Positions 2,991-46,532 of a DNA stretch of 46,826 nt are shown here, in pieces. The stretch spans positions 27,799 to 74,624 of the forward strand of contig PMNE01000032.1 in the NCBI GenBank assembly GCA_003162635.1, in the 5' to 3' direction. This DNA is from Ignavibacteriota bacterium (GTDB taxonomy: Bacteria; Bacteroidota; Ignavibacteria; UBA10030; UBA6906). Numbering within the stretch: position 1 is the stretch's first letter; every line of letters begins with the position of its first letter. Under the pieces are notes generated by a model. That model saw only the letters and a list, made by a program, of their open reading frames with translations. It was not told the origin of the DNA and ran no database searches. The position numbers and the translations under genes were made by a program.

Positions 2991-3033
2991 AAACGGCTTA
3001 GGAATGTCTTTTGCAAAGGAGAACAGGAATATC

Positions 3034-4200: not shown

Positions 4201-4202
4201 CC

Positions 4203-5498
4203 ATGATTGCCCGTTATACGCGTCCTGCGATGGGAAGGATCTGGGAGGATCACAACAAATTCCAGATTTGGCTCGATATCGAGATCCTCGCCTGTGAAGC
4301 ACAGGCCGATCTCGGCGTGATCCCGCGGGAAGCGGTTGAGGTGATTCGCGCAAAAGCGACTTTTGATGTCGGACGCATCGATGAGATCGAACGGGAAGTG
4401 AAACACGACGTGATAGCGTTCCTGACGAATGTCGGGGAACACGTCGGACCGGAAGCGCGATTCATCCACCTCGGCATGACGTCGTCCGATATTCTCGATA
4501 CGTGTCTCTCCATTCAGATGAAACAGGCGGGGGAGATGCTGCTCGCGGGACTGGCGAGACTGTCGGATGTGCTCGCGCGGCGGGCGAAGGAATTCAAAAC
4601 GACCATCATGGTGGGGAGAACCCACGGCATCCACGCGGAACCGACCACGTTCGGACTGAAGCTCGCGCTCTGGTATGACGAGACCCGCAGAAACATCGAA
4701 CGGCTCCGCAGTGCCGTCGACAGGATCAGCGTCGGCCAGATCTCGGGTGCCGTGGGGACGTACGAGCACCTGAGTCCGAAGGTTGAGGAGTACGTGTGCG
4801 CCCGACTCGGGCTGAAGCCCGCGCCCGTTTCGACGCAGATCCTCCAGCGTGACCGCCATGCAGAGTTCCTGACGGTTCTTGCGATCGCCGGGAGCTCACT
4901 CGAGAAGTTTGCAACGGAAATCCGTCACCTCCAGAAAACGGAGGTGCTCGAAGCGGAGGAGTACTTTGCCAAGGGGCAGAAGGGCTCCTCTGCCATGCCG
5001 CACAAGCGCAACCCGATTACGTGCGAGAGAGTGGCCGGATTGTCGCGCGTTTTGCGCGGGAATGCGCTTGCGTCGATGGAAAACGTAAGTCTGTGGCATG
5101 AGCGCGACATCACCCATTCTTCTGTCGAGCGCATCATTGTCCCCGATAGCTGTATTCTGCTCGATTACATGGCGGCGCTGATGACCGATGTGCTCGATCG
5201 CCTCATCGTCTATCCGGAGCATATGCGGGAAAACCTTGACCGGACCCACGGCCTGATCTTTTCCCAGGCGGTTCTCCTCGCCCTCACCAACAAGGGGATG
5301 AAGCGTGAAGATGCATACCGCCTCGTGCAAACGGCGGCGATGGAGGTCTGGCGGTCCGGGAATGATTTTCGTGCCACGCTGGAAGCTGTCCCGGAGGTGA
5401 ACGGTCTCTTGAGTGCCGGGGAGCTTGTCGGGATCTTCGACCTCGACAAGAGCATCCGCAACGTCGACGAAATATTCCAACGGGCCGGTCTCGGATAG
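4203..5498 (+). CDS. purB: Adenylosuccinate lyase
   Basis: Cleaves SAICAR and adenylosuccinate, releasing fumarate, in purine and AMP synthesis. At 431 residues it has the family's usual length. Visible motifs are [23 protein letters not shown] (catalytic His) and the fumarase/aspartase signature [11 protein letters not shown] in the flexible loop that holds the catalytic Ser. The ATG lies 2 bases after the HtrA stop. Confidence 0.96.
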
Positions 5499-5599
5499 AG
5501 GAAACGGGACCGGAAGGGCCCTTCTGTCCCCGCCGCCCGGTGTCCGGAGGTGCCGGCGGGGAGCGTGCGATCATACGATCATTTCTCCTGAGGATTCAT

Positions 5600-7093: not shown

Positions 7094-7224
7094 CCCGTGG
7101 CCGGCATTGATTTCTATATCGTTTCTCTCTTCGAGCATCAGGAGTTCTTCTGAGGGTGGTGTTGTCTGCCCGCGCACGATGCAGACCGCTGACGACAAAC
7201 ACAAAACCCGGAAGGAGTTCCCTT

Positions 7225-8655
7225 ATGCCTGTTCGCAAGAATCAGAAAACGAGGAAGGCCCGCGCCACCACAAAGACAGGAACGACGAAACGCGCTGCGC
7301 GAAGCGCCCGCAGGAGTATGCGCAACGCTCCTCCCCCCGTCCTCCGCATTTCTCCCGCCCTTGCCATCCCGACCCTTCGGCGCCACATGCTTGTCGATGG
7401 GTTCGACATTGTCATCGACCTGGAAAAGAGCAAGGGATCGTACATCGTCGATGCGCGGACCGGCAAGCGCTATCTTGATTTCTTCACCTTTGTCGCATCG
7501 TCACCCGTCGGGCTGAACCACCCGAAAATGACGGCTCCCGCGTTCCAGAAGAAACTCGCCCGGGTTGCGACCAATAAGCCGTCGCTCTCCGATATCTACG
7601 CGGCGGAACAGGCGGAGTTTGTTGAGACGTTCGCCCGCGTTGCTGTTCCCCCGTACCTGCCCCACGCGTTCTTCATCGAAGGCGGGACGCTCGGTGTGGA
7701 GAACACTCTGAAAGCGGCGTTCGACTGGAAGATCCGGAAAAACTTCGCGAAGGGATACCGCGAAGAACGGGGACGCCAGGTGATCCACTTCCGCCAGGGC
7801 TTCCACGGGCGGTCGGGGTACGCACTGTCGCTGACGAATACCGATCCTGCGAAAACCGATCTGTTCCCGAAGTTCGCCTGGCCGCGCGTGCTGAACCCCG
7901 CGGTCGCATTTCCGTTGAACGTCGAAAACCTCGCGAAGGTTGAACGGGACGAGCAGACAAGCATCGGACAGATCAAGCAGGCGTTTCATGACAACCGGGA
8001 CGACATCGCGGCGATCATCATCGAGGCGATCCAGGGCGAGGGAGGCGACAATCACTTCCGGCCTGAATTCTTCCGGGTGCTGCGACAGCTTGCCGACGAA
8101 AATGATGCGATGCTGATCGTCGATGAAGTGCAAACCGGCATTGGCATGACCGGAAAGATGTGGGCGCACCAGCATTTGGTCGAACCTGATATGATCGCTT
8201 TTGGCAAGAAAGTCCAGGTGTGCGGCTTCCTGTGCGGCAAGCGCATCGAGGAAGTGCCGGAAAACGTCTTCAATGTTTCCAGCCGGTTGAACTCGACCTG
8301 GGGGGGAAACCTTACCGACATGGTTCGGTCGCAGAAATATCTCGAGATCATCGAGGAAGAGAATCTGGTGGAGAATGCCCGCGTGGTCGGCGACTATCTG
8401 GTGGGGCGCCTGCAGGGGCTTGCCGAGGAGTTTCCGGACATTGTTTCCAATGCGCGTGGGCGGGGGCTCTTTGCGGCCTTCGACGTTGCCAGCGGCGACC
8501 TCCGGACATCGGTCAGGACGAAGTGCTTGAAGAAAGGGCTGATCATCCTGCCGAGCGGCGAGCGGTCGATGCGGTTCCGTCCGCCGTTGAATGTCTCGCG
8601 GAAGGAGATCGACGAGGGGATCGGGATCATTGTCGCTGCATTCAAGGAGGTCTGA
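7225..8655 (+). CDS. lat: L-lysine 6-aminotransferase
   Basis: PLP class III aminotransferase that moves the epsilon-amino group of lysine to 2-oxoglutarate, giving aminoadipate semialdehyde (spontaneously piperideine carboxylate). Sequence along its length matches the Lat family: SSPVGLNHPKM, EGGTLGVENTLKAAFDWK, EAIQGEGGDNHFRPEFF, IVDEVQTGIGMTGKMW. The PLP Lys is residue 328 (IAFGKK). ATG 7225 has GGAG about 7 bases upstream; a farther in-frame start at 7156 lacks this. Residues 3-35 are a very basic Lys/Arg/Thr-rich extension before the conserved domain. It lies 131 bases after the dehydrogenase. Confidence 0.92.
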   Translation: MPVRKNQKTRKARATTKTGTTKRAARSARRSMRNAPPPVLRISPALAIPTLRRHMLVDGFDIVIDLEKSKGSYIVDARTGKRYLDFFTFVASSPVGLNHPKMTAPAFQKKLARVATNKPSLSDIYAAEQAEFVETFARVAVPPYLPHAFFIEGGTLGVENTLKAAFDWKIRKNFAKGYREERGRQVIHFRQGFHGRSGYALSLTNTDPAKTDLFPKFAWPRVLNPAVAFPLNVENLAKVERDEQTSIGQIKQAFHDNRDDIAAIIIEAIQGEGGDNHFRPEFFRVLRQLADENDAMLIVDEVQTGIGMTGKMWAHQHLVEPDMIAFGKKVQVCGFLCGKRIEEVPENVFNVSSRLNSTWGGNLTDMVRSQKYLEIIEEENLVENARVVGDYLVGRLQGLAEEFPDIVSNARGRGLFAAFDVASGDLRTSVRTKCLKKGLIILPSGERSMRFRPPLNVSRKEIDEGIGIIVAAFKEV

Positions 8656-8706
8656 CGCACCGGCGTTTCTCACCAACGTGCGATGCGGTCCCTCTCATTC
8701 CATGAC

Positions 8707-8742
8707 GGGGCAGAGTGCGCAGGCATTCTGCCCCTGCCTTTT
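8707..8742 (+). terminator. Candidate intrinsic terminator after lat
   Basis: GGGGCAGA (8707-8714) pairs with TCTGCCCC (8727-8734) around a 12-base loop, followed by TGCCTTTTCTT. It lies between the converging lat and subtilase genes and may serve lat. The T-run is imperfect. Confidence 0.5.
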
Positions 8743-8784
8743 CTTGCACCCGCCTCACGCGCGAGACGGGAGATCCGTTGCAGA

Positions 8785-10590
8785 TTATTGCACGAGCATC
8801 ATCGTGCGCGCGAGCGATGTCGCGATGCCGGATGTTCCGCGTGCCGACAAACGGTAGATGTACACGCCGGACGCAACATGCCTGCCGCTCTGGTCTGTCG
8901 CATCCCACATGACGTGGTAGGGGATTCCTGTCGAAGCCGGGTAGTTCCCCTGCACCAGAGTTCTCACCTTCCGCCCCAGGATATCATAGACGGTCAAATC
9001 CACCGTAGACTCCTCCGGGAGGAGAAACTCGATCCGCGTGCCCGGGTTGAACGGGTTTGGGTAGTTCTGTCCGAGAGAATATCCGCGCGGGAAAGGTTCC
9101 TTCGTGGCGGTGTCTGCATTCCGTGCAAGAAAGTCAATGGCCGCCTTTGCATTCACTATCCCCCAGCCGTCATAGTCGTCGGGGGATCCGGCATTGCTCG
9201 CCGTTGCCTTGAGTGCACCAACGATCTCCATAGGTGTCGCCTTTGGAAAGGCGTGGAGGACAAGGGCGGCGACGCCGGCGGTCAAAGGACAGGAAAAAGA
9301 TGTTCCCGACCACACACTATATCCCGTGGGCACGCTGGCGCTCGCCGTATACACGTTGACGCCCATCGCCATCACGTCGGGCTTGATGCGTCCGTCGGCG
9401 GTGGGTCCGTACGAACTGAACGACGCGCGGATTCCGCCGGAATTCACTGCTCCCGCCGTCAGGACACTGTCGCCGTCTGCCGGCGCTATCAGCGTGTTCG
9501 GCTGGCCGGCTCGTGCAACGGCATCGTTCCCCGCGGAGTTCACCACGATGATCCCCTTGGCAACAGCCATTTCGGCTGCCCGCGTAATCACGGTGGTCTT
9601 CCCATCCATGTCGCTCCATGTCCAGCTCGTGTACGGGGCATCGTACGTGAGGTAGCCAAGGGAGGTGCTCGCAACATCGATGCCCAGACTGTCTGCCCAC
9701 TCGATCGCCCGAGCCCAGTTGTCTTCCTCCACCGGGGTTTCGCTGCTGTCGTTCTCCGTTCGGGCCAGGACAAAAGAAGCGCCAAACGCCGGTCCGAGAA
9801 GCTGGCCGGGTTCATACCCTGCGATCGTTGAGAGGGTATTGATTCCGTGGGATCCGAAACTGGTCGAAGGGTTGTCCGGCGCGACGCTCACCTTGTGATC
9901 CACAAAATCGTATGTAGCGATGATCCGGGAGCGGAGAGAGTCGAATGCCTGATGGCTCAGGAGACGGAAGCCGTTGTCGAAGAAGCCGATAAGCACTCCT
10001 TGCGCGGAGTTCCCGGAGGCGTGGACGGCTGGGATGTTTTCGAGACTATCCTGGAGAAGCGAGGGACCATAGGCGAGGTCATTCGTCAAGGCGGCCTTCG
10101 CCGCAGGGGAGGCAGACACGGCGTGTTCGATCTCGACAGGATTCTCCCGGGGCGGCGCGCCGTAACGCATGAGAAGATCGATTGTCCGGACAAACGGCAA
10201 TCCGCTCAGAGCCCGGATCTGAGCGGGCGTTGCCACGGCGCTGACAGCGTTCAACCACTTGGAAACCTGCCGCACATGGAGTGTCGCAGCGGCCACCTGA
10301 TCGATGTACGCCTGTTCGACCGGGAGGTCTGTCGCGTCGACAAGCTTGTCCACCGTCCGTACCCGTCCCCTCCGTTGAAGCGATCGCGGACTTACAAGCT
10401 GCTCCGGTATCGAGAGCTTTTCGAAGGTCCGGTTCCCCTTGTCCGTGAAGTATATCCAAACGGTGAGGGGGGTTCCCGGAACGGCGCTCTGGAGACTCGC
10501 CTCCAGTCTTGCCGTCGTTTGGGCTCGACTGCCGGAAACAAGCGACGCCAGGAGAAAGGCGATCGTTCCTGCGATGGTCATACGGTTCAT
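8785..10590 (-). CDS. Secreted subtilisin-family (S8) serine protease with type IX-type C-terminal sorting domain
   Basis: 601 residues from ATG 10590. A signal peptide (MNRMTIAGTIAFLLASLVSGSRAQ) is followed by the S8 domain with Asp205 (FFDNG), His248 (GSHGIN) and Ser431 (GTSFSCP), plus the oxyanion Asn in NSAGND. The C-terminal ~90 residues hold QNYPNPFNPGTRIEF, a FlgD-like fold (DILGRKVRTL) and ASGVYIYRL, which match the Por/type IX secretion sorting domain. It is therefore expected to cross the outer membrane and be surface-attached or released. Earlier in-frame starts up to 10872 would overlap nadE on the other strand and bury the signal peptide. No type IX machinery lies in the window. 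Confidence 0.92.
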   Translation of the reverse strand: MNRMTIAGTIAFLLASLVSGSRAQTTARLEASLQSAVPGTPLTVWIYFTDKGNRTFEKLSIPEQLVSPRSLQRRGRVRTVDKLVDATDLPVEQAYIDQVAAATLHVRQVSKWLNAVSAVATPAQIRALSGLPFVRTIDLLMRYGAPPRENPVEIEHAVSASPAAKAALTNDLAYGPSLLQDSLENIPAVHASGNSAQGVLIGFFDNGFRLLSHQAFDSLRSRIIATYDFVDHKVSVAPDNPSTSFGSHGINTLSTIAGYEPGQLLGPAFGASFVLARTENDSSETPVEEDNWARAIEWADSLGIDVASTSLGYLTYDAPYTSWTWSDMDGKTTVITRAAEMAVAKGIIVVNSAGNDAVARAGQPNTLIAPADGDSVLTAGAVNSGGIRASFSSYGPTADGRIKPDVMAMGVNVYTASASVPTGYSVWSGTSFSCPLTAGVAALVLHAFPKATPMEIVGALKATASNAGSPDDYDGWGIVNAKAAIDFLARNADTATKEPFPRGYSLGQNYPNPFNPGTRIEFLLPEESTVDLTVYDILGRKVRTLVQGNYPASTGIPYHVMWDATDQSGRHVASGVYIYRLSARGTSGIATSLARTMMLVQ

Positions 10591-12297: not shown

Positions 12298-13836
12298 ATG
12301 GCACATGGGAATGATGAATCCCTTCGGCTGAGCAACACACGCCATCCTATTCTCTATGAGGTGAATGCACGTGTCTTGCTGACGGATCTCTCCTCGACGG
12401 AAGGAAAACGCGTGACGTTGGGAGCGATTCCTGACTCCGTGTTGGACGAATGGGCGGAGATGGGGATCGACGCGGTCTGGATGATGGGTGTGTGGACATG
12501 CGGGCCCCTGGGAATTGCCATTGCGCGAGAACATCCGGATCTGGCCCTGGTGTATGAATCGGTTCTCCCCGGTTATACCGCCGGCGATGTCGGTGGGTCC
12601 CCGTATGCCGTTCAGGCGTACACCGTCCCCGCGAGTCTTGGAGGCGAAACAGGCCTGAAGCGGCTGCGTCGCCGATTGGCAAAAAGGGGGGTGGCGCTCG
12701 TCCTTGATTATGTCTGCAACCACACTGCGCGCGATCACGAGTGGGTGGAAGATCATCCTGAATACTACATCCACGGAAGGGAAGGGGAGGAACGTGAGAG
12801 GCCCGATTCCTACTTCCGTGCGGACACCAGGCGTGGGACGGTGGCGCTGGCGTACGGACGCGACCCCAGCTTTCCAGGATGGACTGATACCGCACAGTTG
12901 AATTCCCGGCATCGTGGTGCACGCGAGGCGATGATCGAGACCCTCGGAAGGATCGCCTCTCGCTGTGACGGGGTCCGGTGCGATATGGCGATGCTCGTGC
13001 TCAACAGCGTGTTCGAGCGGACGTGGGGGGATCACGCGGCACTGGGGGGCGAAACCCTGGCGACCGGCGAGTTTTGGAAGGAAGCGATTGAGACGGTGCG
13101 CAAGAAGCATCCATCCTTCCTGTTCATCGCCGAGGCATACTGGAATATGGAGTGGGATCTCCAGCAGCTCGGGTTTAACTACACCTACGATAAGACGCTG
13201 TACGACAGGTTGCTGCGTGAAGGTGCAGGTTCCGTTCGCGATCATCTCCGGGCGGAGATGGACTATCAGATGCACTCGGTCCGCTTTATGGAAAACCATG
13301 ACGAACCGCGCGCGGCGACGGCCATGCCGTCGGAAGGGTGGCAGTACGCGGCGGCAACCGTCATCGCAACGGTTCCGGGGATGGTCATGTTCCATGAAGG
13401 ACAATTTGAAGGGCGAAAGATCAGACTCCCGGTCCAGCTTTGCCGCCGCCCCCCGGAAGAGAGTGCCCCCCGGACACTCGCTTTCTACGAAAGACTCCTT
13501 GGCGTGGTCGCTGGGAATGTGTTCCGGCAGGGAGGATGGCGGCTCCTCATGCCCCGTCCTGCGTGGAACGAAAACTATACCTGGCAAAATGTCCTCGCTT
13601 TCTGGTGGGAGGAAGCAAAGGAGGGGAATCGCCTGGTTATCGTCAACTATGCACCCCTGACCGGCCAGTGTTACATCGATCTGCCTCTGGAGCTCCTTCC
13701 CGGACGGTTGATAGCGTTCCGTGACCTGATGGGGGAGGCGTCGTACAACAGGGAAAAGCACGGCCTGACGTCGAAGGGGCTGTATTTTGACCTCCCTGCG
13801 TATGGAATTCACATATTCCGGATCACCTCTCGATAG
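12298..13836 (+). CDS. GH13 alpha-amylase-family enzyme
   Basis: 512-residue TIM-barrel glycoside hydrolase with all four GH13 regions: DYVCNH (region I), GVRCDMAM with nucleophile Asp229 (II), FIAEAYW with acid/base Glu279 (III), and MENHDE with Asp335 (IV). No signal peptide is present, so it should be cytosolic and act on maltodextrin, glycogen or another alpha-glucoside. The C-terminus (VIVNYAPLTGQCYIDL...) fits the usual beta domain. It starts 9 bases after rsmI and probably shares its transcript. Subfamily and substrate are not determined. Confidence 0.85.
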   Translation: MAHGNDESLRLSNTRHPILYEVNARVLLTDLSSTEGKRVTLGAIPDSVLDEWAEMGIDAVWMMGVWTCGPLGIAIAREHPDLALVYESVLPGYTAGDVGGSPYAVQAYTVPASLGGETGLKRLRRRLAKRGVALVLDYVCNHTARDHEWVEDHPEYYIHGREGEERERPDSYFRADTRRGTVALAYGRDPSFPGWTDTAQLNSRHRGAREAMIETLGRIASRCDGVRCDMAMLVLNSVFERTWGDHAALGGETLATGEFWKEAIETVRKKHPSFLFIAEAYWNMEWDLQQLGFNYTYDKTLYDRLLREGAGSVRDHLRAEMDYQMHSVRFMENHDEPRAATAMPSEGWQYAAATVIATVPGMVMFHEGQFEGRKIRLPVQLCRRPPEESAPRTLAFYERLLGVVAGNVFRQGGWRLLMPRPAWNENYTWQNVLAFWWEEAKEGNRLVIVNYAPLTGQCYIDLPLELLPGRLIAFRDLMGEASYNREKHGLTSKGLYFDLPAYGIHIFRITSR

Positions 13837-13847
13837 AAACGAGCGCC

Positions 13848-13880
13848 CGGGGGCCTCATCCTCCCCCCGCTTTTCTTCCT
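13848..13880 (+). terminator. Candidate terminator after the GH13 gene
   Basis: A CGGGGG/CCCCCG stem (13848-13853 with 13864-13869) with a 10-base loop is followed by a pyrimidine-rich CTTTTCTTCCT tail. It lies between the GH13 stop and the groES promoter. The stem is short. Confidence 0.4.
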
Positions 13881-13910
13881 CTACTCTCGTCATCGGGCAT
13901 CTCCATCCTC

Positions 13911-13938
13911 TTGACAATCTCCCAATTTCTTCTATATT
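13911..13938 (+). promoter_or_regulatory. groESL promoter
   Basis: TTGACA (13911-13916), 16 bases, TATATT (13933-13938). It also fits TTG-N19-TATATTGT. The CIRCE element begins at 13940, over the expected transcription start. Confidence 0.75.
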
Positions 13939-13939
13939 G

Positions 13940-13966
13940 TTAGCACTCATTCAGGGTGAGTGCTAA
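13940..13966 (+). promoter_or_regulatory. CIRCE operator (HrcA binding site)
   Basis: TTAGCACTC-N9-GAGTGCTAA, a perfect copy of the controlling inverted repeat of chaperone expression bound by the HrcA repressor. It lies just downstream of the -10 box and 60 bases before groES. No hrcA gene is in the window, so the repressor must be encoded elsewhere. Confidence 0.97.
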
Positions 13967-14026
13967 TAGTGTTACCTATCTGTTAAGCACTTCATTTTAA
14001 ATAACTTACAGTTCTATGGAGGTACT

Positions 14027-15996
<1,970 letters not shown>

Positions 15997-16023
15997 GATC
16001 CTCACCGCTGTAAAGCTGCATCC

Positions 16024-16062
16024 GACCCCGGGGCTTCGCACAAAAGTCCCGGGGTCTTTTTT
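16024..16062 (+). terminator. Intrinsic terminator of groESL
   Basis: A 9-bp stem (GACCCCGGG 16024-16032 with CCCGGGGTC 16048-16056) is followed by TTTTTT. It lies 27 bases after the groEL stop and directly before the TetR promoter. Confidence 0.9.
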
Positions 16063-16072
16063 GTCTCTCCTG

Positions 16073-16101
16073 TTGACAACATCAGTTGCGTTCAGTACAT
16101 T
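16073..16101 (+). promoter_or_regulatory. Promoter of the TetR/exporter operon
   Basis: TTGACA (16073-16078), 17 bases, TACATT (16096-16101); also TTG-N20-TACATTAG. An 18-bp palindrome covers the -10 element, as expected for an autorepressed operon. Confidence 0.7.
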
Positions 16102-16109
16102 AGTACTGA
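16092..16109. promoter_or_regulatory. Palindromic operator candidate overlapping the -10 box
   Basis: TCAGTAC-ATTA-GTACTGA is a perfect 7-bp inverted repeat. Its position over the -10 box and the downstream TetR gene suggest it is that regulator's binding site. Seen in sequence; binding is inferred. Confidence 0.6.
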
Positions 16110-16110
16110 G

Positions 16111-16127
16111 AAAACTAAAATAGTTTT
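16111..16127. repeat. Second perfect inverted repeat just before the TetR start
   Basis: AAAACTA-AAA-TAGTTTT, 7-bp arms with a 3-base spacer, ending one base before the ATG at 16129. It could be a second operator half-site region or a weak hairpin in the leader. Confidence 0.45.
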
Positions 16128-16128
16128 T

Positions 16129-16785
16129 ATGGTGTTTGTTCCTCAATTCTCCCGATCTATGCCGGATACACCTGATATCAAAACACTCATCCTGCAAAAC
16201 GCGCGAAAGCGATTCGAGGCCGAGGGGTTCTCGCGTGTATCGGTCGATGATCTCGCGGCCGATCTTGGGATGAGCAAGAAGACGTTCTACAAGCATGTTG
16301 CGAGCAAAGATGCATTGCTGGACGAGGTCATCGGCGACATACTGGATGAGGTCGGGTCGAACGTCCGGACGCTCCTGTCGGGAGAAGGGACGTTCATCGA
16401 AAGACTCGACCGGTGGATGGGATTCCTCGCGCAGCAGATATCGCACCTGAGCAAACTGCTCATCCTTGATCTCCAACGCCGGAGACCCGACGTCTGGGCC
16501 AGGATTCAGAAGTTCCGCAAGGAACGAATCCTTGAATTCATGGGGAAGATCATCGCAGAGGGAATCCGCGAGGGGCATATCCGCTCGAACGTCCATCCGG
16601 AGCTTGTTGTGTCGGCATTCATCGGGACAATCGAGGCAGTGATCAATCCCGAAATCCTCGCAGAGCAGTCGTACTCGGCGAAGGACGCGATCCGCGGGAT
16701 CATGGATCTCTTCTTCCTGGGGATGCTGACCGAAGAGGCATCGCGGGATCTGCGGACGAGACAATCGACTTCTTCACAACAATAG
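16129..16785 (+). CDS. TetR/AcrR-family transcriptional regulator
   Basis: 218 residues. The N-terminal helix-turn-helix is typical (ARKRFEAEGFSRVSVDDLAADLGMSKKTFYKHVASKDALL), and the C-terminal ~150 residues form a divergent ligand-binding domain. ATG 16129 is the longest start; ATG 16159 (MPDTPD...) would give the more usual short lead-in and is equally possible, and neither has a clear Shine-Dalgarno. It is the first gene of the exporter operon, ending 12 bases before the HlyD gene, so it probably represses the exporter and itself. Confidence 0.9.
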   Translation: MVFVPQFSRSMPDTPDIKTLILQNARKRFEAEGFSRVSVDDLAADLGMSKKTFYKHVASKDALLDEVIGDILDEVGSNVRTLLSGEGTFIERLDRWMGFLAQQISHLSKLLILDLQRRRPDVWARIQKFRKERILEFMGKIIAEGIREGHIRSNVHPELVVSAFIGTIEAVINPEILAEQSYSAKDAIRGIMDLFFLGMLTEEASRDLRTRQSTSSQQ

Positions 16786-16797
16786 GAGGACCACACA

Positions 16798-17721
16798 ATG
16801 CGTGTTGTCCAGGGAGTGTGCGTGGCTGCCCTTGCGGTGCTCGCGGCAGGGTGCTCGGGTGACGGCGGCGGAGTGATCGAGGGATCCGGCACGATCGAAG
16901 GGACGGACGTGAACGTCGGTGCTGAGGTGTCAGGGAAGATCCTTGAGGTGCGTGTCGATGAAGGAATGCGCGTGGCCCGGGGCGATACGCTCGTTGTCAT
17001 CGACGACACGGAGTACGCGCTCCAGCTGCTTCAGGCGGAGGCCGGCCTGGCATCGCTCGAATCGGCCTATCAGCTCTCCGTCGAAGGATCGCGGCAGGAA
17101 GATGTGATTCAGGCCAAAGCTGCGGACGAAACTGCACAGTCGGATGAGAAGAGAATGAGGGATCTCCTCGCCTCGCAGACGATCACGCAAAAGCAGTACG
17201 ATGATGCCTACGCACGGTCCGTTGCGGCCGAACAGACGTATCAGAAACTCCATCGGGGTTCCCGTCCGGTGGAAATCCGCGGCGCACGCGATCGGCGCGA
17301 CCAGGCGTCGGCGCAGGTGGAGCTGTTGCGAAAGAAGGTGCGTGACTGCCGCATCCTCTCGCCGTCCGACGGAACGGTCACGTTGCGCGGCGTGGAACCC
17401 GGCGAGCTGGTGGCCGTCGGAACGAACGTCCTGCGGCTGACCTACCTGGACAAGGTCAAGCTGACGATCTATGTGAATGAAACGGACCTGGGAAAGGTGA
17501 AGCTCCGCCAGGGAGCAAAGGTCTCGATCGATACCGATGCGAAGAGAAGCTATGACGGCATCGTCGTGTTCATCTCACCGGTTGCCGAGTTTACGCCCAA
17601 GAACGTCCAAACCAAGGAAGAACGAACCAAACTCGTGTTCGGCGTCAAGATTGAAGTGCCGAATCCGGATGGGAGTCTCAAACCGGGTCTTCCCGCCGAT
17701 GCACGCATCATCGCCGGCTGA
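16798..17721 (+). CDS. HlyD-family periplasmic adaptor lipoprotein of an ABC exporter
   Basis: 307 residues. The N-terminus ends in a lipobox (VLAAGC, Cys19), so it is a lipoprotein. The biotinyl-lipoyl-like half (VNVGAEVSGKILEVRVDEGMRVARGDTL), a helical hairpin (about residues 70-180) and the return half (DCRILSPSDGTVTLRGVEPGELV) match the YbhG/EmrA branch of membrane fusion proteins. It would bridge the ABC-2 permeases to the TolC protein. AGGAGG precedes the ATG. Confidence 0.9.
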   Translation: MRVVQGVCVAALAVLAAGCSGDGGGVIEGSGTIEGTDVNVGAEVSGKILEVRVDEGMRVARGDTLVVIDDTEYALQLLQAEAGLASLESAYQLSVEGSRQEDVIQAKAADETAQSDEKRMRDLLASQTITQKQYDDAYARSVAAEQTYQKLHRGSRPVEIRGARDRRDQASAQVELLRKKVRDCRILSPSDGTVTLRGVEPGELVAVGTNVLRLTYLDKVKLTIYVNETDLGKVKLRQGAKVSIDTDAKRSYDGIVVFISPVAEFTPKNVQTKEERTKLVFGVKIEVPNPDGSLKPGLPADARIIAG

Positions 17722-35130: not shown

Positions 35131-36117
35131 ATGTACGCACGATTGTACGCGAAATCCGGTCCCCTCGCCGGCAAGTCATACGACATCGTGGCGGAAGCCA
35201 TCATCGGCCACGGGCCGGAGTGCAATCTTGTCATCAAGAGTGGAATCATATCCGCGAAGCATGCTCGCATCTTCTATGACCAGAAGAAGGGGTCGTATTT
35301 CCTGGAGGACTTCAAGACCTTGAACGGGACGCTTCTCGATGGAAAACCGGTCCAGGGAAGGGTGAAACTCGAGAAGAAGCATGTTGTGATCATTGCAAAC
35401 ACGTTTGCGTTTATTTTCCAGGTGGAATCGGGCCAGGCTGCGGATCCCTTGCCGCCCCCTCCGAGAGACCTACCCCCCGAACCGGAGATTCCACCTCCGC
35501 CGCGCCGCCGGCCATCTGAACCGATGGAAGCGTCTCCGCTTCCGGACGAAGCGCCGATGGCCAAGCCTCTTCCTTCCGCACCCCCGCCTGCCGCCCAAGC
35601 TCCGGCCGTCCCGGCCGACGATGCGCCCGGGTCGCAGGAAGCGCCCGTGGAGCACAGGACCGTTTTTGACGAACCTGAAGAACCGAAGGAAGAAGAGGAG
35701 CTCGAATTCGTCGGTGATCTCCCCATTCCTGAGCCGGCCCCACAGTCGCGCGATGCTGCGCCGACCATGCTGATTGACGAGGAGCAGCTCGCGGCCCTTC
35801 TCGGTCCGCCGCGTTTTGCCCTGGAGTTTAAGACCGTCCGAGGTGAAAAGCACGCGGTGGACCTGAAGGAAGGGGAGAATACGGTGGGCCGCCTCGCCGG
35901 AAGTGAGATCTCCCTCGATGATGCCTCGATCTCGCGGAGCCATGCCCTCATCACCGTTCGGGCCGGGAAGGTCGTTGTACGCGATCTCGACAGCAAGAAC
36001 GGGACATTCGTCGGCGACAAGAAGATTGCCGCTGAAATCGAGATCAAGCCGGAGACCCCTCTCCGGTTCGGCCTTGTGAAAGCTTCGCTCGTTCGAAAGA
36101 CGGAGAAGCCCGCATGA
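35131..36117 (+). CDS. Double FHA-domain protein with Pro/Glu-rich linker
   Basis: 328 residues, no signal peptide, so cytosolic. FHA1 spans about residues 1-95 and FHA2 about 228-325, joined by a disordered Pro- and acid-rich linker. FHA2 has the full phosphothreonine-binding set (TVGR, SRSHA, DSKNGTF). FHA1 keeps SAKHAR and LNGT but has His where the phosphate-contacting Arg should be (IIGH). The linker holds two Thr sites, HRTVFDE and APTMLIDE, that fit pTxxD and pTxxI docking preferences. It precedes the phosphatase and kinase genes by 77 bases and is probably their phospho-reader or scaffold. Confidence 0.88.
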   Translation: MYARLYAKSGPLAGKSYDIVAEAIIGHGPECNLVIKSGIISAKHARIFYDQKKGSYFLEDFKTLNGTLLDGKPVQGRVKLEKKHVVIIANTFAFIFQVESGQAADPLPPPPRDLPPEPEIPPPPRRRPSEPMEASPLPDEAPMAKPLPSAPPPAAQAPAVPADDAPGSQEAPVEHRTVFDEPEEPKEEEELEFVGDLPIPEPAPQSRDAAPTMLIDEEQLAALLGPPRFALEFKTVRGEKHAVDLKEGENTVGRLAGSEISLDDASISRSHALITVRAGKVVVRDLDSKNGTFVGDKKIAAEIEIKPETPLRFGLVKASLVRKTEKPA

Positions 36118-36194: not shown

Positions 36195-37016
36195 GTGAAA
36201 CGCATAACGTTTGCAAACTATTCCCACGTCGGGAAGGTTCGCTCGGAAAACCAGGACTCGTTCGGGAAATTCCCCGAGGGAACACTTGACCTCGGTGTGC
36301 CCGGGGGACAGCTGTTTGTGATCGCCGACGGCATGGGGGGACAGAATGCGGGCCGGGAGGCGAGCACGCTGGCGGTCCGGACACTCGCAGAGGCCTACTA
36401 TGCCGGGAACGATCCCGCCGTCATCCCCAACCTCCGCGAAGCGTTCGCAGCGGCAAACGCGGCGATCTATGCCAAGAGCACGACGGGGCAACAGTACCGG
36501 GGCATGGGGACCACCTGTGTCGTCATCGTCTTGCGCGACGGACATGCCTATATTGGGAATATCGGCGACAGCCGTGTCTATAAGGTGAACCAGCGCGGGA
36601 TCGAGCAGCTGACCAACGATCACTCGAAGGTTGCTGAAATGGTCCGACGCGGAATCATCACCAGGGAAGAGGCGAAAACCCACCCGGAACGTTCGCATCT
36701 GTATAGGGCCATGGGGCCGCGGGCTTCGGCTGAGGTGGATTTTTTTGATGATATGCCGCTGACGAGCAGCCGGACGTATCTCATGTGTACGGACGGGTTG
36801 TTCAATCATGTCGATGACGAGGATATGCGGCGCATCGTTCTTGCCTCTTCCCCCGACAAGGCGTGCCGGCAACTCGTCCAGCTGGCGAATGATCGCGGAG
36901 GAACCGACAATATCACCGTGCAGGTGATCCGGGTCGACGTGAACACCACGTCGCTTGGCCCGATCGCCCGCGGCAAAGAAAGATTGAAAGCAATGCTCAA
37001 GCCGAAAAAGCAGTAG
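36195..37016 (+). CDS. PP2C-family Ser/Thr protein phosphatase
   Basis: 273 residues from GTG 36195. All metal-binding and catalytic motifs are visible: VRSENQD, VIADGMGGQNAG, IGDSRVYKV, CTDGLFNHVDDED and GGTDNITV. It is a soluble phosphatase of the Stp/PppA type, expected to reverse the action of the kinase that starts 3 bases after its stop. Confidence 0.95.
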   Translation: MKRITFANYSHVGKVRSENQDSFGKFPEGTLDLGVPGGQLFVIADGMGGQNAGREASTLAVRTLAEAYYAGNDPAVIPNLREAFAAANAAIYAKSTTGQQYRGMGTTCVVIVLRDGHAYIGNIGDSRVYKVNQRGIEQLTNDHSKVAEMVRRGIITREEAKTHPERSHLYRAMGPRASAEVDFFDDMPLTSSRTYLMCTDGLFNHVDDEDMRRIVLASSPDKACRQLVQLANDRGGTDNITVQVIRVDVNTTSLGPIARGKERLKAMLKPKKQ

Positions 37017-37019: not shown

Positions 37020-38789
37020 ATGGATCCCATCGTCGGCAAGACCATCGATACATACAAGATTCTTGACGTGCTGGGGCGTGGGGGGATGGGGGTGGTGTAC
37101 AAGGCGGTCGACACGCAACTCGACCGCGAGGTGGCCATCAAAATGATGGACGTGATGATTGCCACCGATCCCAATTTCATGAAGCGGTTCCAATCGGAAG
37201 CCAAGGCCCTCGCGAAACTGCAGAACCCCAATATCGTTTCCGTCTTTGCGTTGCGGCAAACGGATTTCGGTATCTGCATCGTCATGGAGTTCGTGAGGGG
37301 GAAGACGCTGGCCGATCTCCTCAAAGAGACGAGGAGTGTTCCGATCCCGCGCGCGATCCACATCTTTAAGCAGCTCCTTTCGGCTCTCGACCATGCCCAT
37401 CGGGCAGGCGTCATCCACCGCGACATCAAGCCCGGGAATGTCATGCTGGCGGAGGGCGATGTCGTGAAGGTCACGGATTTCGGCCTGGCAAAGATACAGA
37501 AGGGGAATGCTTCCACCATGACGATGGGGACGGCCGGGACGCTCTACTATATGTCCCCGGAACAGATCCGCGGTCTCAGCAACGTGGATAACCGCGGCGA
37601 CATTTATTCCGCGGGCATGGCCCTGTACGAAACCCTCACCGGCCGGGTCCCCTTTAAGGCGGATGACTCCGATTTTGTCGTTGGACAGATGATCGTCGAA
37701 GGACGCATCCCGCCGCCCGACAAGATGAATCCCGCCCTGCCGAAGGACCTCGTCAAGGTCGTCATGAAGTCGATCGACAAGGACCCCGCCCGCCGGTACC
37801 AATCGGCGGCCGAGATGATTGTGGCGCTGAATACTTTCGAGCGGGCGATGAGGCCGGGGCAGGTCCCCCTCGATTCCGCTCCGACGATCGTCGGTCCGAT
37901 TTCGCACCCCGAGCCGGGGGACCGCCCGGCGACGCCGCAAAGGAAGCGCCTGATTCTCTACGGCGCAAGTGCGGCGGCCCTCTGTGTCATCGCAGCGGCC
38001 GTATGGTTCTTCAGCCCTTCCGAGGAAGGGACGCTCACGGTGAAGCTCACCCCGCCGGGGGGTAAAGTATATATTGATAATGCTCTTGTGGAGAAGAGTA
38101 CGTTGGAGAATCATCCGTGCGCTGCCGGGCCGCACCGCGTGACAGTCCTCTGGGGCCAGGGACGCCTCGACACAAGCGTTTCCATTGCCGCAGGGCATGC
38201 GTCGACCCTGCTGCTTGCCCAGCGGCGGCAGGCGGAGGGCGTGAAGACTCCAGTGGAGGAGCCGGCCGCGTCCACCCCTCTTGTGGACAAGGGGACAACC
38301 GTCGGCGTGCCGGAGACCGAAACGCATGAGGTCTCCATGGGGACGCTTCTTCTGGAGGCGGTCCCTGCGGGTGAAGCAAGAGTGGATGACGGATCTTTCC
38401 GATCTGCAGGGGGAGGGACTCGCCATCAAGTCCAGGTGGGGATGCGGAGGGTGACGTTCAGAGGCGGAGACGGGGTGACCAAGGAGAAAAGTGTGCACGT
38501 TGCTGCCGGTACGACGCAGACGGTCAAGTGCTATTTCACCGGAACTGTCAATGTCGCGGCTATCGACAGCAAGACGGGGAAGGGAACATGGGCGAATATC
38601 CAGGTGGACGGCGTGCGTCAGGAAGTGGGGGCTCCCACAACACTGCATCTCTCCGCGGGACGTCATGTGATCAGCGTCTCGCGGCAGGGATACAAAGTGC
38701 TGGAGGGGAGCAGAAGCGTTACCGTCGAACCTTCCTTCGACGGCCCTCCAGAATACAAACCAATGTCTTTCAAACTGCAACAGCCATAA
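37020..38789 (+). CDS. Transmembrane Ser/Thr protein kinase with PEGA-like extracytoplasmic repeats
   Basis: 589 residues. The PknB-like kinase domain (about 1-275) has LGRGGMGVVYKA, Lys in VAIKM, VIHRDIKPGNVML, VTDFGLA and YMSPEQ. A juxtamembrane segment holds SAPTIVG. One helix (about 308-328) is followed by about 260 extracytoplasmic residues with PEGA-like repeats (GTLTVKLTPPGGKVYIDN; GTLLLEAVPAGEARVDD; a third variant near ANIQVDGVRQEVGAPTTLHLSAGRHVISVSRQGY written as separate blocks VDGVRQ and LSAGRHVISV). The outer domain may sense envelope state. It is 3 bases after the phosphatase. Confidence 0.93.
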   Translation: MDPIVGKTIDTYKILDVLGRGGMGVVYKAVDTQLDREVAIKMMDVMIATDPNFMKRFQSEAKALAKLQNPNIVSVFALRQTDFGICIVMEFVRGKTLADLLKETRSVPIPRAIHIFKQLLSALDHAHRAGVIHRDIKPGNVMLAEGDVVKVTDFGLAKIQKGNASTMTMGTAGTLYYMSPEQIRGLSNVDNRGDIYSAGMALYETLTGRVPFKADDSDFVVGQMIVEGRIPPPDKMNPALPKDLVKVVMKSIDKDPARRYQSAAEMIVALNTFERAMRPGQVPLDSAPTIVGPISHPEPGDRPATPQRKRLILYGASAAALCVIAAAVWFFSPSEEGTLTVKLTPPGGKVYIDNALVEKSTLENHPCAAGPHRVTVLWGQGRLDTSVSIAAGHASTLLLAQRRQAEGVKTPVEEPAASTPLVDKGTTVGVPETETHEVSMGTLLLEAVPAGEARVDDGSFRSAGGGTRHQVQVGMRRVTFRGGDGVTKEKSVHVAAGTTQTVKCYFTGTVNVAAIDSKTGKGTWANIQVDGVRQEVGAPTTLHLSAGRHVISVSRQGYKVLEGSRSVTVEPSFDGPPEYKPMSFKLQQP

Positions 38790-38813: not shown

Positions 38814-39863
38814 ATGAGAACACTACCGTCGTGGCGGTCAAGCGTTGCGTCGTTGTTCGTTGTTCTGGCGTTGGCGTGCGGGGCCCTGGCGTTTTCCCCG
38901 GCCGTTGCCCATGCGCAGGGAGGGGGGGACGTGAAGCTGGCGAAGGCGATCGACTCGTTCAATGCCGGCGACTTCGACAGCGCGATCAAGGCGTACAACG
39001 ACATCGTGGCCGACAAGTCATTGGATAAGCCCGTCAGGCGTGATGCACTCCTCGGGCTTGGCCGTGCGTATTATGCCAAGAACAACAAGGAAAAGGCGAA
39101 GAGCGCGTTGAGCGATATGCTCGATCTCGAGCCCCCCCTGGTGGAACTCAACCCGGATGAAGAGGCACCTCCCCTGATGAAACTGTACTATGCTGTACGC
39201 CGGGAAAAACAGGGAAACCTGTCGGTGGAACGGGCTGATCCGGGAATCAAGACGATTGCCGTCCTCGACTTCCAAAACCACTCGATCGATGACAAGGCAA
39301 AATATGATCCGATGGAGAAGGGCTTTGCGGATCTTGTCATCAACCAGTTGCGGGGCTCCGTGCAGCTCAAGGTGATTGAAAGGGAGCGCATCGGATGGAT
39401 CATGGATGAGATCGGCCTCGAGAACACACCCGGGAAATTCGACGTTACCTCGGCAGTGCGCGTTGGAAAACAACTTGGCGTCCATGCCGTAGTGCTCGGG
39501 AGTTTCATCAAAGTGAAGGGTGACATCTGGCTGGGGGCGAGGTTGGTCAAGGTGGAAACGAGTGAAATTCTGGCAACGGAGGAAATCAGGGGGGATGCGG
39601 ACGATTTCTTCGAACTTGCGGAGAAGCTCAGCGCCAAGATGGCCAAGGGGATCAACATCAACATCACCGAGGCGGAGCTCACCAAGTCGAATGAAACGAA
39701 ATCCCTTGATGCCATGATGTCCTACTCCGAAGGACTCGTCCTCGTCGAGCGGGGTGACTATGACGGAGCGGTGAAGAAGTTCGAAGAAGCGCTGCAGCAG
39801 GATCCGACATACGACAAGGCACGCATGAAAGCCCAAAGTCTGAAGCCATTACTTCGGGGTTGA
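38814..39863 (+). CDS. Exported TPR and CsgG-like domain protein
   Basis: 349 residues with a long signal peptide ending near AVAHAQ (about residue 35). TPR-like helices (SFNAGDFDSAIKAYNDIV, LGLGRAYYAKNNKEKAKSALSDML) lead into a CsgG/FlgO-like fold: KTIAVLDFQNHS, KGFADLVINQLRG, LKVIERERIGWIMDEIGL, GVHAVVLGSFIKV. A final TPR unit is GDYDGAVKKFEEALQQDPTYDKA. CsgG-type proteins build or accompany outer-membrane pores. GGAGG precedes ATG. It is 24 bases after the kinase and 3 bases before a similar lipoprotein. Confidence 0.85.
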   Translation: MRTLPSWRSSVASLFVVLALACGALAFSPAVAHAQGGGDVKLAKAIDSFNAGDFDSAIKAYNDIVADKSLDKPVRRDALLGLGRAYYAKNNKEKAKSALSDMLDLEPPLVELNPDEEAPPLMKLYYAVRREKQGNLSVERADPGIKTIAVLDFQNHSIDDKAKYDPMEKGFADLVINQLRGSVQLKVIERERIGWIMDEIGLENTPGKFDVTSAVRVGKQLGVHAVVLGSFIKVKGDIWLGARLVKVETSEILATEEIRGDADDFFELAEKLSAKMAKGININITEAELTKSNETKSLDAMMSYSEGLVLVERGDYDGAVKKFEEALQQDPTYDKARMKAQSLKPLLRG

Positions 39864-39866
39864 CCC

Positions 39867-41183
39867 ATGAACGGACGCGGCGTCTGGTTTCTCCTTCTCC
39901 TGCCGCTCTTCCTGAATGCGTGTGCGACCACCGGCACCACGGTCACCGCCGGGGATTATGCGCAGACGATTCGGAAACTGCAGGAGCGGCTTGTGGCAAA
40001 TCCCCAGGATGGGGAGGCGTTGCGGGATCTGGGAGTCATTGCATTTGAAACAAAGCAGTACTTCCAGGCCCGCGATTACCTGAAGAAGTCGTCTCTCGTC
40101 AACGATCGCGACGGGAAGACGCTGTTCTATCTCGGCATGACGCAGGAGTACGCCAACGATCTCCCAGGTGCGCTGGCTTCGTACCTGAACTACACCGACC
40201 TCGCGGAGTCCTCGCAGTACCGGAAGCTCATGGAGGGAAGATACCAGGCGGTTGCCCGTGAACTGATCGCGGCACAGTTCCGGGCTCTGGCGGCGAACGA
40301 GGACTCGCTCGGGAAGCAAAGCACGCCATCAAGCGCGGTAGCGGTTTTCCCCCTTGTGTATCAGGGGACGGACCAAAAATTCTCCTCGCTTGGGCTCGGC
40401 CTTGCGGAAATGATGACCATTGATCTTGGCTATGTGAAGAAGATCAAACTGGTGGAGCGCATGCGCGTGGAGGAACTGATGACGGAGCTCAAATTCGGCG
40501 CTTCAGGGGCTGTGGATCCCGCGACCGCCCCGCGGCTCGGGAAATTCCTTGCCGCGGGCCGGATCGTCGGCGGGAGGTATGCCGTCGGTGCCGACAACAC
40601 GCTCCGCCTCGATGTCGCCTCGCTGGATGTTGCACGCGGCAAGCAGCCGGAGACGAGCACGGAATCGGATGATCTGGGAAACCTGTTCAAGGTGCAGAAG
40701 GAAGTCGTGTTCCAGGTGGTGAAGAATATGGGGATTACGCTCACGCGGGATGAACGGGAGAAGATCCAGCGCATTCCCACGAAGAACCTTCAGGCCTTTA
40801 TCGCCTATTCCATAGGGCTTGAGCGGGAACAGGAAGGAGACTTCGGCGCGGCGAGCGTCTATTTCCGACAGGCGAGCACGTTGGATCCCGGCTTCGCACC
40901 GGCCGCGGCAGCGGCGGAGATATCCGATGCGCGCAACGCTGCGGGACCTACGAAAGAATCGGCGCTCGCAGCATCGAACAGCCTGAGTCCGCCTCCGGCG
41001 CCGGATGCGCGCAACCAGCATTTTTCGTCCCAGGCACTCCTGGCGCAGCGTCTGCAGAAACTGGACTCCATGATCAATCTCGGCTTTATCCCGGGGGAGG
41101 ACAGCAGGAAACCTGCACAGGATGTCGGATCGGCCGGGGCATTGGTCAATGTGCTTCCGGCGCCGCCGCGCCCTCCGCAATGA
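39867..41183 (+). CDS. TPR and CsgG-like lipoprotein
   Basis: 438 residues. A lipobox (LFLNAC, Cys19) marks it as a lipoprotein. The order repeats that of the preceding protein: TPR helices (DGEALRDLGVIAFETKQYFQARDYLKK), a CsgG-like core (AVAVFPLVYQG, LGLAEMMTIDLGYVKKIKLVERMRVEELMTEL, AAGRIVGGRYAV), then a TPR (GLEREQEGDFGAASVYFRQASTLDPGFAPA). The tail is Pro/Ala-rich. E. coli CsgG is itself an outer-membrane lipoprotein. It may form a complex with the non-lipidated partner. Confidence 0.85.
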   Translation: MNGRGVWFLLLLPLFLNACATTGTTVTAGDYAQTIRKLQERLVANPQDGEALRDLGVIAFETKQYFQARDYLKKSSLVNDRDGKTLFYLGMTQEYANDLPGALASYLNYTDLAESSQYRKLMEGRYQAVARELIAAQFRALAANEDSLGKQSTPSSAVAVFPLVYQGTDQKFSSLGLGLAEMMTIDLGYVKKIKLVERMRVEELMTELKFGASGAVDPATAPRLGKFLAAGRIVGGRYAVGADNTLRLDVASLDVARGKQPETSTESDDLGNLFKVQKEVVFQVVKNMGITLTRDEREKIQRIPTKNLQAFIAYSIGLEREQEGDFGAASVYFRQASTLDPGFAPAAAAAEISDARNAAGPTKESALAASNSLSPPPAPDARNQHFSSQALLAQRLQKLDSMINLGFIPGEDSRKPAQDVGSAGALVNVLPAPPRPPQ

Positions 41184-45614: not shown

Positions 45615-46532
45615 CTATGAAATCTCAATCGAAAACTTCACGCACAGTTCCGGTTGGATGGAAGTCGATTTTCCAAGACTGATCAATCCCGTTCCCACCA
45701 GGATCACCTCATCCCTCCGGACGGCGATCTCCTTTGCTCCGTTCATGAAGACGAACGTGCCGTTAATGCTCTGGTCGACCAGCACGAAGCGTCCACGCCT
45801 GAATTCCACCCTTGCATGAGCCCTTGAGGCGAGCGGCTCCGGAATCACGAAATCATTTTCCGGGCCCCTCCCCATGTGAAGCGCGGTCCGCTCCCGGTTC
45901 AGTTCCGCGGTCGAATCGCCGTACGTTGCGTGAAGACACACTTCATGGTGGCTGGATTCGAAGATGTTCTGGACAATCGTCAGATTCTCAAGTTCCCAGA
46001 TCAACTCGAAGAGGTCCAGTTCCTCCTTCTTCCCTTTGACCGCTGCCCGGTCGATGAACCGAAGCGATTGCGCCATGGCCTCAGGGAGCTGATCGGCAGT
46101 CTGCTTCGTGGTCAGGATTTGTCCCTTCTTCGCCTGCGCTATCACGCGGGCGGCGGTATTCACCGCATCCCCGAAGACATCCCCATCCTTGAGGATGACC
46201 GGCCCGTATTGAAATCCCACCTTGATGCTCAATGTTTCATATGGTACCGTGCCGATCGCAACGGCTTGCTTCAGCGATCGCTGCATATCCTGAGCCGCCT
46301 CTGCGGCCAAAAGGGGATCGGGGAAAGTGCACATCAACTCATCTCCGATACTCTTGACAAAGGTCCCCTGGTGTCGCTGTGCCGCAATGGTGAGGACTTC
46401 CAGCGCTTTGGAGATGATCGTTTCTGCACGGGTATTTCCGAGGGATTCGTACAACTTCGTGCTGCCGCTGACATCGGCAAAGAGGATGGCGAGCTGAATG
46501 CTCGGACGATGTTCGTTTTTGCTATTCGGCAT
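45615..46532 (-). CDS. Class III adenylate cyclase with C-terminal FHA domain
   Basis: 305 residues, soluble. The N-terminal cyclase domain (about 10-185) has both metal Asp residues (FADVSGST and IGDELMCTF), the substrate Lys in VKSIGD, Asp in FGDAVNTAAR and the transition-state Asn/Arg in the same motif, so it should be active on ATP. The FHA domain (about 205-290) is canonical: MGR, SRAHAR, NGTF. This joins cAMP production to phosphothreonine reading. It converges on the plus-strand locus with 34 bases between stops. Confidence 0.92.
   Translation of the reverse strand: MPNSKNEHRPSIQLAILFADVSGSTKLYESLGNTRAETIISKALEVLTIAAQRHQGTFVKSIGDELMCTFPDPLLAAEAAQDMQRSLKQAVAIGTVPYETLSIKVGFQYGPVILKDGDVFGDAVNTAARVIAQAKKGQILTTKQTADQLPEAMAQSLRFIDRAAVKGKKEELDLFELIWELENLTIVQNIFESSHHEVCLHATYGDSTAELNRERTALHMGRGPENDFVIPEPLASRAHARVEFRRGRFVLVDQSINGTFVFMNGAKEIAVRRDEVILVGTGLISLGKSTSIQPELCVKFSIEIS

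Follow-up and report, generated by a model that had tools for sequence, protein, structure and literature searches.

How diderm bacteria with Hanks-type kinases sense what happens at their outer membrane or outside it is, to our knowledge, largely open. CsgG, the curli channel, is a nonameric ring with two transmembrane beta-hairpins, and PelC is a CsgG-superfamily lipoprotein without a pore of its own. The accessible portion of a report on PelBC (PMC12141448) describes a ring of twelve PelC lipoproteins under a barrel, with periplasmic tetratricopeptide repeats (TPRs) and with the last barrel strands numbered 15 and 16. According to the accessible portion of a report on Rcs (PMC4942254), a kinase can receive its input from a lipoprotein within a barrel. 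In this study, we analysed a 46,826-nucleotide stretch (the window) of an Ignavibacteriota genome (assembly GCA_003162635.1, contig PMNE01000032.1, positions 27,799 to 74,624), and focused on two adjacent genes in it whose products we call CsgG1 and CsgG2. Both combine TPRs with a CsgG-superfamily core. CsgG1 is apparently a soluble exported protein and CsgG2 a lipoprotein.

We tentatively read the pair as linking proteins within the envelope, encoded by a trans-envelope signalling operon made up of an outer-membrane lipoprotein/barrel complex, the periplasmic CsgG1 and a Hanks-type Ser/Thr kinase. More tentatively still, we propose that Ignavibacteria, Rhodothermia, Calditrichaeota and KSB1 have a dedicated outer-membrane-to-cytoplasm system. 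In it the kinase, served by an FHA reader and a PP2C eraser of its own, may read the lipoprotein/barrel complex through CsgG1. We found no description of a kinase-CsgG-barrel system in the open-licence literature.

Genomic association of CsgG2 with a barrel and of CsgG1 with a kinase

A CsgG2 profile scan of genome contigs identified 45 loci, all in metagenome-assembled genomes, whose hosts are Ignavibacteria and other Bacteroidetes/Bacteroidota, KSB1, Calditrichaeota, Rhodothermia, one Gemmatimonadetes, one Desulfobacterales and others. Together with the window and loci L036 and L037, they form the discovery set (50 CsgG2 genes, 48 loci). Further loci outside profile building came from a phylum sample in which 14 of 296 genomes had CsgG2. 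This further set holds 9 CsgG2 genes of 9 loci, none used for profiles; L105 (a copy of the L066 contig) and L109 (without CsgG2) were omitted, and L106 lies in the same genome as L066 at a different place.

We found a barrel gene 3' of CsgG2, on the same strand and within 8 kb, for 23 of the 24 discovery genes whose downstream sequence extends at least 7.5 kb, and for 9/9 genes of the further set. What lies between them varies: a gene with a type IX secretion system (T9SS) tail is present, or, in several loci, the barrel directly follows CsgG2. In L100, the barrel match (283 bits) and the end of a T9SS-tail open reading frame (ORF) overlap. After the barrel, PEGA proteins are encoded in L073, L075 and L078, and LamG proteins in L072 and L077.

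The two genes also co-occur across genomes. CsgG2 occurs in 30 of 100 related genomes and the barrel in 31, with 28 genomes having both; within the 21 genomes of the window's family the numbers are 10, 10 and 9 (Fisher tests ignoring kinship, 3.6e-19 and 3.5e-4). Presence of CsgG2 required a match beyond CsgG1-like and fusion ones, and three of 33 genomes (G054, G056, G082) had been removed on this basis beforehand. The discordant genomes are G008 and G086 (CsgG2 without barrel) and G012, G056 and G082 (barrel without CsgG2); the barrel of G056 lies behind a T9SS tail at the start of a contig.

In the window, the barrel protein has no Pfam match at E<=1 and no NCBIfam match at E<=0.1. Its structure model (predicted local distance difference test, pLDDT, 84.9; predicted template modelling score, pTM, 0.79; 32 rows) has 16 long strands, counted by eye, the first from residue 31. 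The VIA search matched it to CdiB (Z 19.9), FhaC (18.6), PelB (18.5; 4.2 A over 269 residues), 4y25 (17.3), a polysaccharide secretin that we take to be PgaA, and BcsC (16.5). These matches are generic rather than specific, with CdiB, FhaC, BamA and porins scoring alike. We read CsgG2 and the barrel as a constant outer-membrane unit.

CsgG1 genes with an N-terminal extension go together with a kinase gene. A kinase gene lies directly 5' in 16/18 CsgG1 genes with an N-terminal extension (at least 85 residues before the core) and in 0/14 without one. The two misses are L101, where the upstream kinase is split into two ORFs, and L109, where CsgG1 is the second of two tandem copies. We also counted from CsgG2 genes with at least 3.5 kb upstream. 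Where CsgG2 directly follows CsgG1, a kinase lies within 3.5 kb upstream in 9/11 discovery and 5/5 further genes, and both misses (L072, L077) have a CsgG1 without the extension. Where CsgG2 does not directly follow CsgG1, the counts are 0/22 and 0/4. The full set of FHA (scored at a low threshold, 15 bits), PP2C, kinase, CsgG1, CsgG2 and barrel was detected in the window, L037, L052, L053, L067 (Rhodothermales), L100, L102, L103 and L104, and in a different order in L106. A Calditrichaeota locus (L064) has FHA, kinase, CsgG1 and CsgG2, after which the contig ends.

In two loci, kinase and core share one polypeptide. The fusions of L050 and L051 (984 and 992 aa) contain a kinase, a transmembrane helix after it, CsgG matches and TPRs, with a FlgO match in L050. 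Hence kinases use a related outer module in one chain. We also observed three tandem large kinases in L051 (positions 1489-9000), two of which match the CsgG1 profile beyond the transmembrane helix; the third is incomplete in the stretch fetched for this locus.

We read CsgG1 with N-terminal TPRs and the kinase as a second unit, joined to CsgG2 and the barrel in the kinase loci. The original prediction had proposed a two-component outer-membrane assembly of the two TPR-CsgG-TPR proteins. The outer-membrane context agrees with this, but two components are too few, since CsgG2 goes with the barrel and N-terminal-TPR CsgG1 with the kinase, both of them constant neighbours.

A possible signalling chain and its competitors

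A chain from the outer membrane to the cytoplasm is the simplest joint model of the two units. CsgG2 would be lipid-anchored in the outer membrane and form one complex with the 16-stranded barrel, into or across which its flexible Pro-rich tail may extend. CsgG1 would act as the soluble periplasmic paralogue, whose core could contact that of CsgG2 and whose N-terminal TPRs would touch the transmembrane kinase at its outer, PEGA-bearing part. The kinase would be informed of the state of the outer-membrane complex, perhaps of how much T9SS surface protein it carries; the FHA protein would read the output and PP2C would reset it. The model builds on gene order, domains, the predicted folds of CsgG2 and the barrel, co-occurrence and ancient paralogy, all of which we computed.

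Several points weigh against this model. All physical contacts, the signal direction and the stimulus are what we infer. In many loci CsgG2 and the barrel are found without a nearby kinase, so this unit has its own function, to which signalling may have been added. Nor does the kinase always adjoin CsgG2, since for the second CsgG2 of L078 and for L106 the kinase-CsgG1 pair lies 4-5 kb upstream. The one miss among the 24 discovery genes scored for the barrel, L080, has a cut barrel 9.3 kb off, beyond two T9SS-tail genes. The loci are also not independent: 10/14 extension-free CsgG1 genes come from one family and 3/18 extended ones from one genus. Rather than sensing, the kinase may control export. 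Finally, the fold indicates no single function, as the core resembles TolB and, weakly, CadC.

Not far behind the signalling chain is export or display in the manner of PelBC, which we consider rather unlikely taken alone. Here, CsgG2 would form a lipoprotein collar under the barrel, its TPRs would guide a polymer or surface protein outward, and the kinase and FHA protein would regulate the process. PelB is among the best barrel matches, 4y25 and BcsC follow, and a PelC ring with periplasmic TPRs and a 16-strand barrel provides the precedent, as far as the accessible portion of PMC12141448 goes. In line with a PelC-type collar lipoprotein, CsgG2 is a predicted lipoprotein (Cys19) with a CsgG-superfamily core that lacks hairpins in the model. 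The kinase-free CsgG2-barrel loci and the T9SS-tailed, PEGA and LamG surface-type proteins adjoining the barrel fit as well. However, the generic barrel matches do not single out PelB, and the TPRs sit on the lipoprotein while the barrel (364 aa, no Pfam match) has no fused TPR scaffold. Moreover, no polysaccharide synthesis gene is present among the eight genes scanned, and the T9SS already offers the surface protein a likely route, with SprA in 60/60 genomes.

PorP/SprF-type barrels are thought to anchor or fold gliding adhesins at the surface, and the barrel and CsgG2 could likewise be an accessory pair for the co-encoded T9SS-tailed protein. A T9SS-tail gene directly precedes or follows CsgG2 in many loci, and SprA is above cut-off in the window's genome. 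On the other hand, no such gene is adjacent in 10/34 CsgG2 genes with Pro-rich tails and 6/6 with other tails (classified by script), and the barrel lacks an NCBIfam match at E<=0.1. This explanation is improbable.

Core fold and ancestry of CsgG1 and CsgG2

The Pfam CsgG model (PF03783, cut-off 20.8 bits) matches CsgG1 with 29.2 bits and CsgG2 with 20.9 bits, so the family match of CsgG2 is borderline. Among aligned relatives, the match is retained at E<=0.001 in 23/23 CsgG1 and 37/42 CsgG2 rows. In each protein, TPR matches flank the core. The domain order given by the original prediction is thus confirmed for both genes, with the boundaries as drawn there and a 3-base gap between them. Of the "CsgG/FlgO-like" label, the first half stood. 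FlgO is below cut-off in CsgG1 (13.3 vs 22.6 bits) and has no row for CsgG2, and LpoB is absent from the 25 of 26 families listed for CsgG1 at E<=1 and from the 11 listed for CsgG2.

The signal-peptide-like N-terminus of CsgG1, with a hydrophobic stretch ending in Ala-His-Ala-Gln, and a sole nearby cysteine that aligned orthologues do not keep suggest an apparently exported, soluble protein. The conserved lipobox cysteine of CsgG2 (Table 1) points to a lipoprotein. Both assignments agree with the earlier ones. Separately, in L042 a protein of about 830 aa (14682-17165) with weak TPR, CARDB and transglutaminase-like matches follows a short CsgG1, and ORFs similar in length and position occur in other f5 loci.

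The CsgG2 model (mean pLDDT 83.3, pTM 0.74; 42-row alignment) comprises TPR-like helices (28-143), the core (157-287), helices (294-373) and then a low-confidence linker and tail. The best VIA match of the core is the TolB N-terminal domain (2hqs_B, Z 12.6, 2.4 A, 125 residues); TPR rows in this search score equally high and say nothing beyond TPR identity. Foldseek matched the core to GNA1162 (E 9.9e-4), and the core plus C-terminal helices weakly to CadC (3ly8, TMq 0.31, E 4.9e-3). The 50 Foldseek or VIA rows listed for the model do not include CsgG, which is no evidence against CsgG likeness. When the core sequence profile was compared with the PDB up to E 10, CsgG was the sole molecule found (five distinct sequences, E 0.005-0.007).

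The original prediction had raised the question of residues for the CsgG transmembrane hairpins. We measured the spacing from Glu-Arg to a Thr-Gly-Glu-like motif, which tests the first hairpin, in 64 rows, excluding one gapped CsgG2 row. The 41 CsgG2 rows have a spacing of 59-62 residues and the 23 CsgG1 rows one of 59-65, versus 86-87 in CsgG by profile alignment. The segment is therefore about 22-28 residues too short in 64/64 rows, a deficit the size of one hairpin, and room for the first hairpin exists in none. The loops between core strands in the CsgG2 model are only 4 and 7 residues long and form no hairpin. As the original prediction had noted for the neighbourhood, CsgE and CsgF partners (PF10614, PF10627) are missing: the whole genome gave 0 matches, and of 14 controls E. 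coli alone was positive. "CsgG-like" is valid at the superfamily level only.

These results bear on two further explanations. PknB-type kinases regulate cell-wall synthesis in Gram-positives, and the pair could be LpoB-like activators of such synthesis under kinase control. LpoB (PF13036) matches at E<=0.001 occur in 14/23 CsgG1 rows. However, the window proteins have no LpoB match among the families listed, the relatives' LpoB matches, where shown, overlap stronger CsgG ones, and no cell-wall synthase is among the eight genes scanned, making this highly improbable. The least probable of all is the CsgG-type secretion pore or CsgG1/CsgG2 hetero-ring to which the first reading of the locus had pointed, for in spite of the CsgG matches in Pfam and the PDB, a curli-type pore is contradicted by the lack of room for the first hairpin, the TolB-like and hairpin-free CsgG2 model and the missing CsgE/CsgF, and one copy is apparently not lipidated.

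As an observation apart, the window's genome holds a third CsgG match (G000, contig C86, 42195-42566, minus strand; 37.4 bits, profile 80-202), whose reading frame contains one stop.

CsgG1 and CsgG2 share 25% identity across 189 residues (E 4e-12). A tree of 89 cores places the 54 CsgG2 rows on one side of a branch with a Shimodaira-Hasegawa-like approximate likelihood ratio test (SH-aLRT) value of 98, and the opposite side holds 31 CsgG1 rows, three kinase fusions and one caspase fusion. The tree has 142 columns only and midpoint rooting, and 41/86 inner branches are open; L032-L049 save L036 and L037 (copies or close kin) and L054, L055, L082, L095, L096 and L105 were excluded. The split predates the sampled lineages, and the two proteins are ancient paralogues. 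The duplication suggested by the original prediction thus stands as paralogy. A recent local event is rejected, because the two fall on opposite sides of the supported branch across Ignavibacteria, Rhodothermia, Calditrichaeota and KSB1 records. A fusion of CsgG, Ig-like and caspase (Peptidase_C14) domains (689 aa) is encoded 3' of CsgG2 and the barrel in L069 (13413-15482).

CsgG2 ends in a Pro-rich tail. In 14 aligned rows L430, P436 and P437 are invariant and P431, P433 and P434 nearly so. Most rows have an LPxPPxPP-like tail, and several KSB1-type loci a strand-like one (...IxIxVPIP). An apparent tie between the Pro-rich tail and an adjacent T9SS-tail gene was dropped, as further loci contradicted it and it was unsupported after correction for descent, with just 1 independent pair on supported branches. 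By eye, the nine strand-like-tail genes of the discovery set (L069-L073, L075, L077, one of L078, L094) all lack an adjacent T9SS-tail gene, and the genes lacking one comprise 8 with Pro-rich and 9 with other tails. By script, the genes with and without one number 24 and 10 (Pro-rich), 0 and 6 (other) and 2 and 2 (unclassified). Exceptions are L101-L104, L107, L086 and both L036 genes. The adjacency table was entered by hand, with L083 scored present on judgement. The script scored the strand-like tails of L075, L078 and L094 as Pro-rich, and left the Pro-rich tails of L036, L079, L083 and L084 unclassified. The conservation of the tail itself, as judged from the aligned sequences, stands.

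The apparent operon around the pair and comparison with described systems

The features of the window are listed in Table 1.

Table 1. Genes of the cluster and features within CsgG1 and CsgG2
Feature	Positions	Strand	Basis
Double-FHA protein (predicted phosphothreonine reader)	35131..36117	+	PF00498 104.5 bits, 2 stretches
PP2C-type Ser/Thr phosphatase, GTG start	36195..37016	+	NCBIfam Stp1/IreP PP2C 242.5 bits, cut-off 230
Hanks-type Ser/Thr kinase, PEGA part extracytoplasmic	37020..38789	+	Pkinase 177.9 bits, PEGA 27.7 bits
CsgG1, exported TPR-CsgG-like-TPR protein, apparently soluble, 349 aa	38814..39863	+	
CsgG1 N-terminal TPR region, residues 42-107	38937..39134	+	TPR matches
CsgG1 core, residues 144-286, too short for first transmembrane hairpin of CsgG	39243..39671	+	PF03783; spacing
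CsgG2, lipoprotein, TPR-CsgG/TolB-N-like-TPR, disordered linker, Pro-rich C-terminus, 438 aa	39867..41183	+	
CsgG2 lipobox cysteine Cys19	39921..39923	+	invariant in 14/14 rows; kept in at least 90% of 42 rows
CsgG2 core, residues 157-287, TolB N-terminal-domain-like fold	40335..40727	+	model
CsgG2 conserved Pro-rich C-terminal tail, LPxPPxPP	41154..41177	+	
Secreted surface protein, MAM-like and TIG domains, C-terminal T9SS type A sorting domain, 1075 aa	41243..44470	+	
Predicted 16-stranded outer-membrane beta-barrel, 364 aa	44486..45580	+	structure model
Class III nucleotide cyclase with C-terminal FHA, membership uncertain	45615..46532	-	PF00211 58.7 bits, PF00498 42.9 bits

The genes from FHA to barrel apparently form one operon, since they share a strand and are closely spaced (gaps of 77, 3, 24, 3, 59 and 15 bases). 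The kinase is, by its HRD and DFG motifs, one transmembrane helix near residue 311 and the adjoining PP2C and FHA genes, a predicted Hanks-type kinase. The helix is followed by 260 residues including PEGA. Among aligned homologous kinases, 15/15 have the kinase domain and 12/15 PEGA, and in several loci an FHA gene lies 5' of the kinase. The surface protein matches TIG (58.9 bits) and the sorting-domain model TIGR04183 (38.0 bits, cut-off 23). SprA, the T9SS translocon, is above cut-off in 60/60 related genomes, the window's own among them. The type A sorting domain and the presence of SprA are what is expected of a T9SS substrate, and the surface protein is predicted to be one.

The cyclase-FHA gene is convergent with the barrel gene and adjoins the barrel in four near relatives (L032, L033, L034, L040), in one of which it is split into two ORFs. 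A CHASE2-cyclase lies 3' of the cluster in another locus (L044, an f5 locus). In L037, a 763-aa protein (4726-7017) with FAD oxidoreductase, FHA and 2Fe-2S domains is encoded between the FHA and PP2C genes, with a multihaem cytochrome immediately 5' of it. Its counterpart in L038 is a 763-aa ORF (13013-15304); the domain scan covered the L037 proteins only.

If our reading of a signalling chain is true, this operon would represent a new way of carrying signals across the whole cell envelope, a second signalling solution beside Rcs and unrelated to it. With kinase, periplasmic protein, outer-membrane lipoprotein and barrel encoded in one conserved operon, outer-membrane sensing would become directly testable, and the barrel, devoid of family matches in the window, gains a predicted partner.

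Among described proteins, the TolB N-terminal domain (2hqs_B) and, weakly, the CadC periplasmic domain (3ly8) share the predicted core fold, but here TPRs flank the core and there is neither a beta-propeller nor a DNA-binding domain. The CsgG curli channel shares the core superfamily, and CsgG2 is, like it, a predicted lipoprotein. It differs in its transmembrane hairpins, whereas the proteins studied here have no room for the first, the CsgG2 model shows none, and both proteins carry TPRs on either side of the core, next to a separate barrel and in a genome where CsgE and CsgF were not found. The kinase-CsgG/FlgO-TPR fusions of L050 and L051 place the same core and TPR elements beyond the transmembrane helix. 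They differ in being single chains, with no CsgG2 or barrel match in the short stretches fetched.

PelC/PelB of Pseudomonas likewise has a CsgG-superfamily lipoprotein and, as covered in the accessible portion of PMC12141448, combines it with a 16-strand barrel and periplasmic TPRs. In contrast, the TPRs here are fused to the lipoprotein, the barrel gene is separate and TPR-free, and a kinase/FHA/PP2C module is present. The RcsF/OMP-IgaA-RcsC system, judged from the accessible portion of PMC4942254, is alike in logic only, as an outer-membrane lipoprotein-barrel complex reporting to an inner-membrane kinase, and we claim no sequence relation. Unlike Rcs, the system proposed here would rely on a Hanks-type Ser/Thr kinase encoded in its own operon together with a periplasmic CsgG-like protein.

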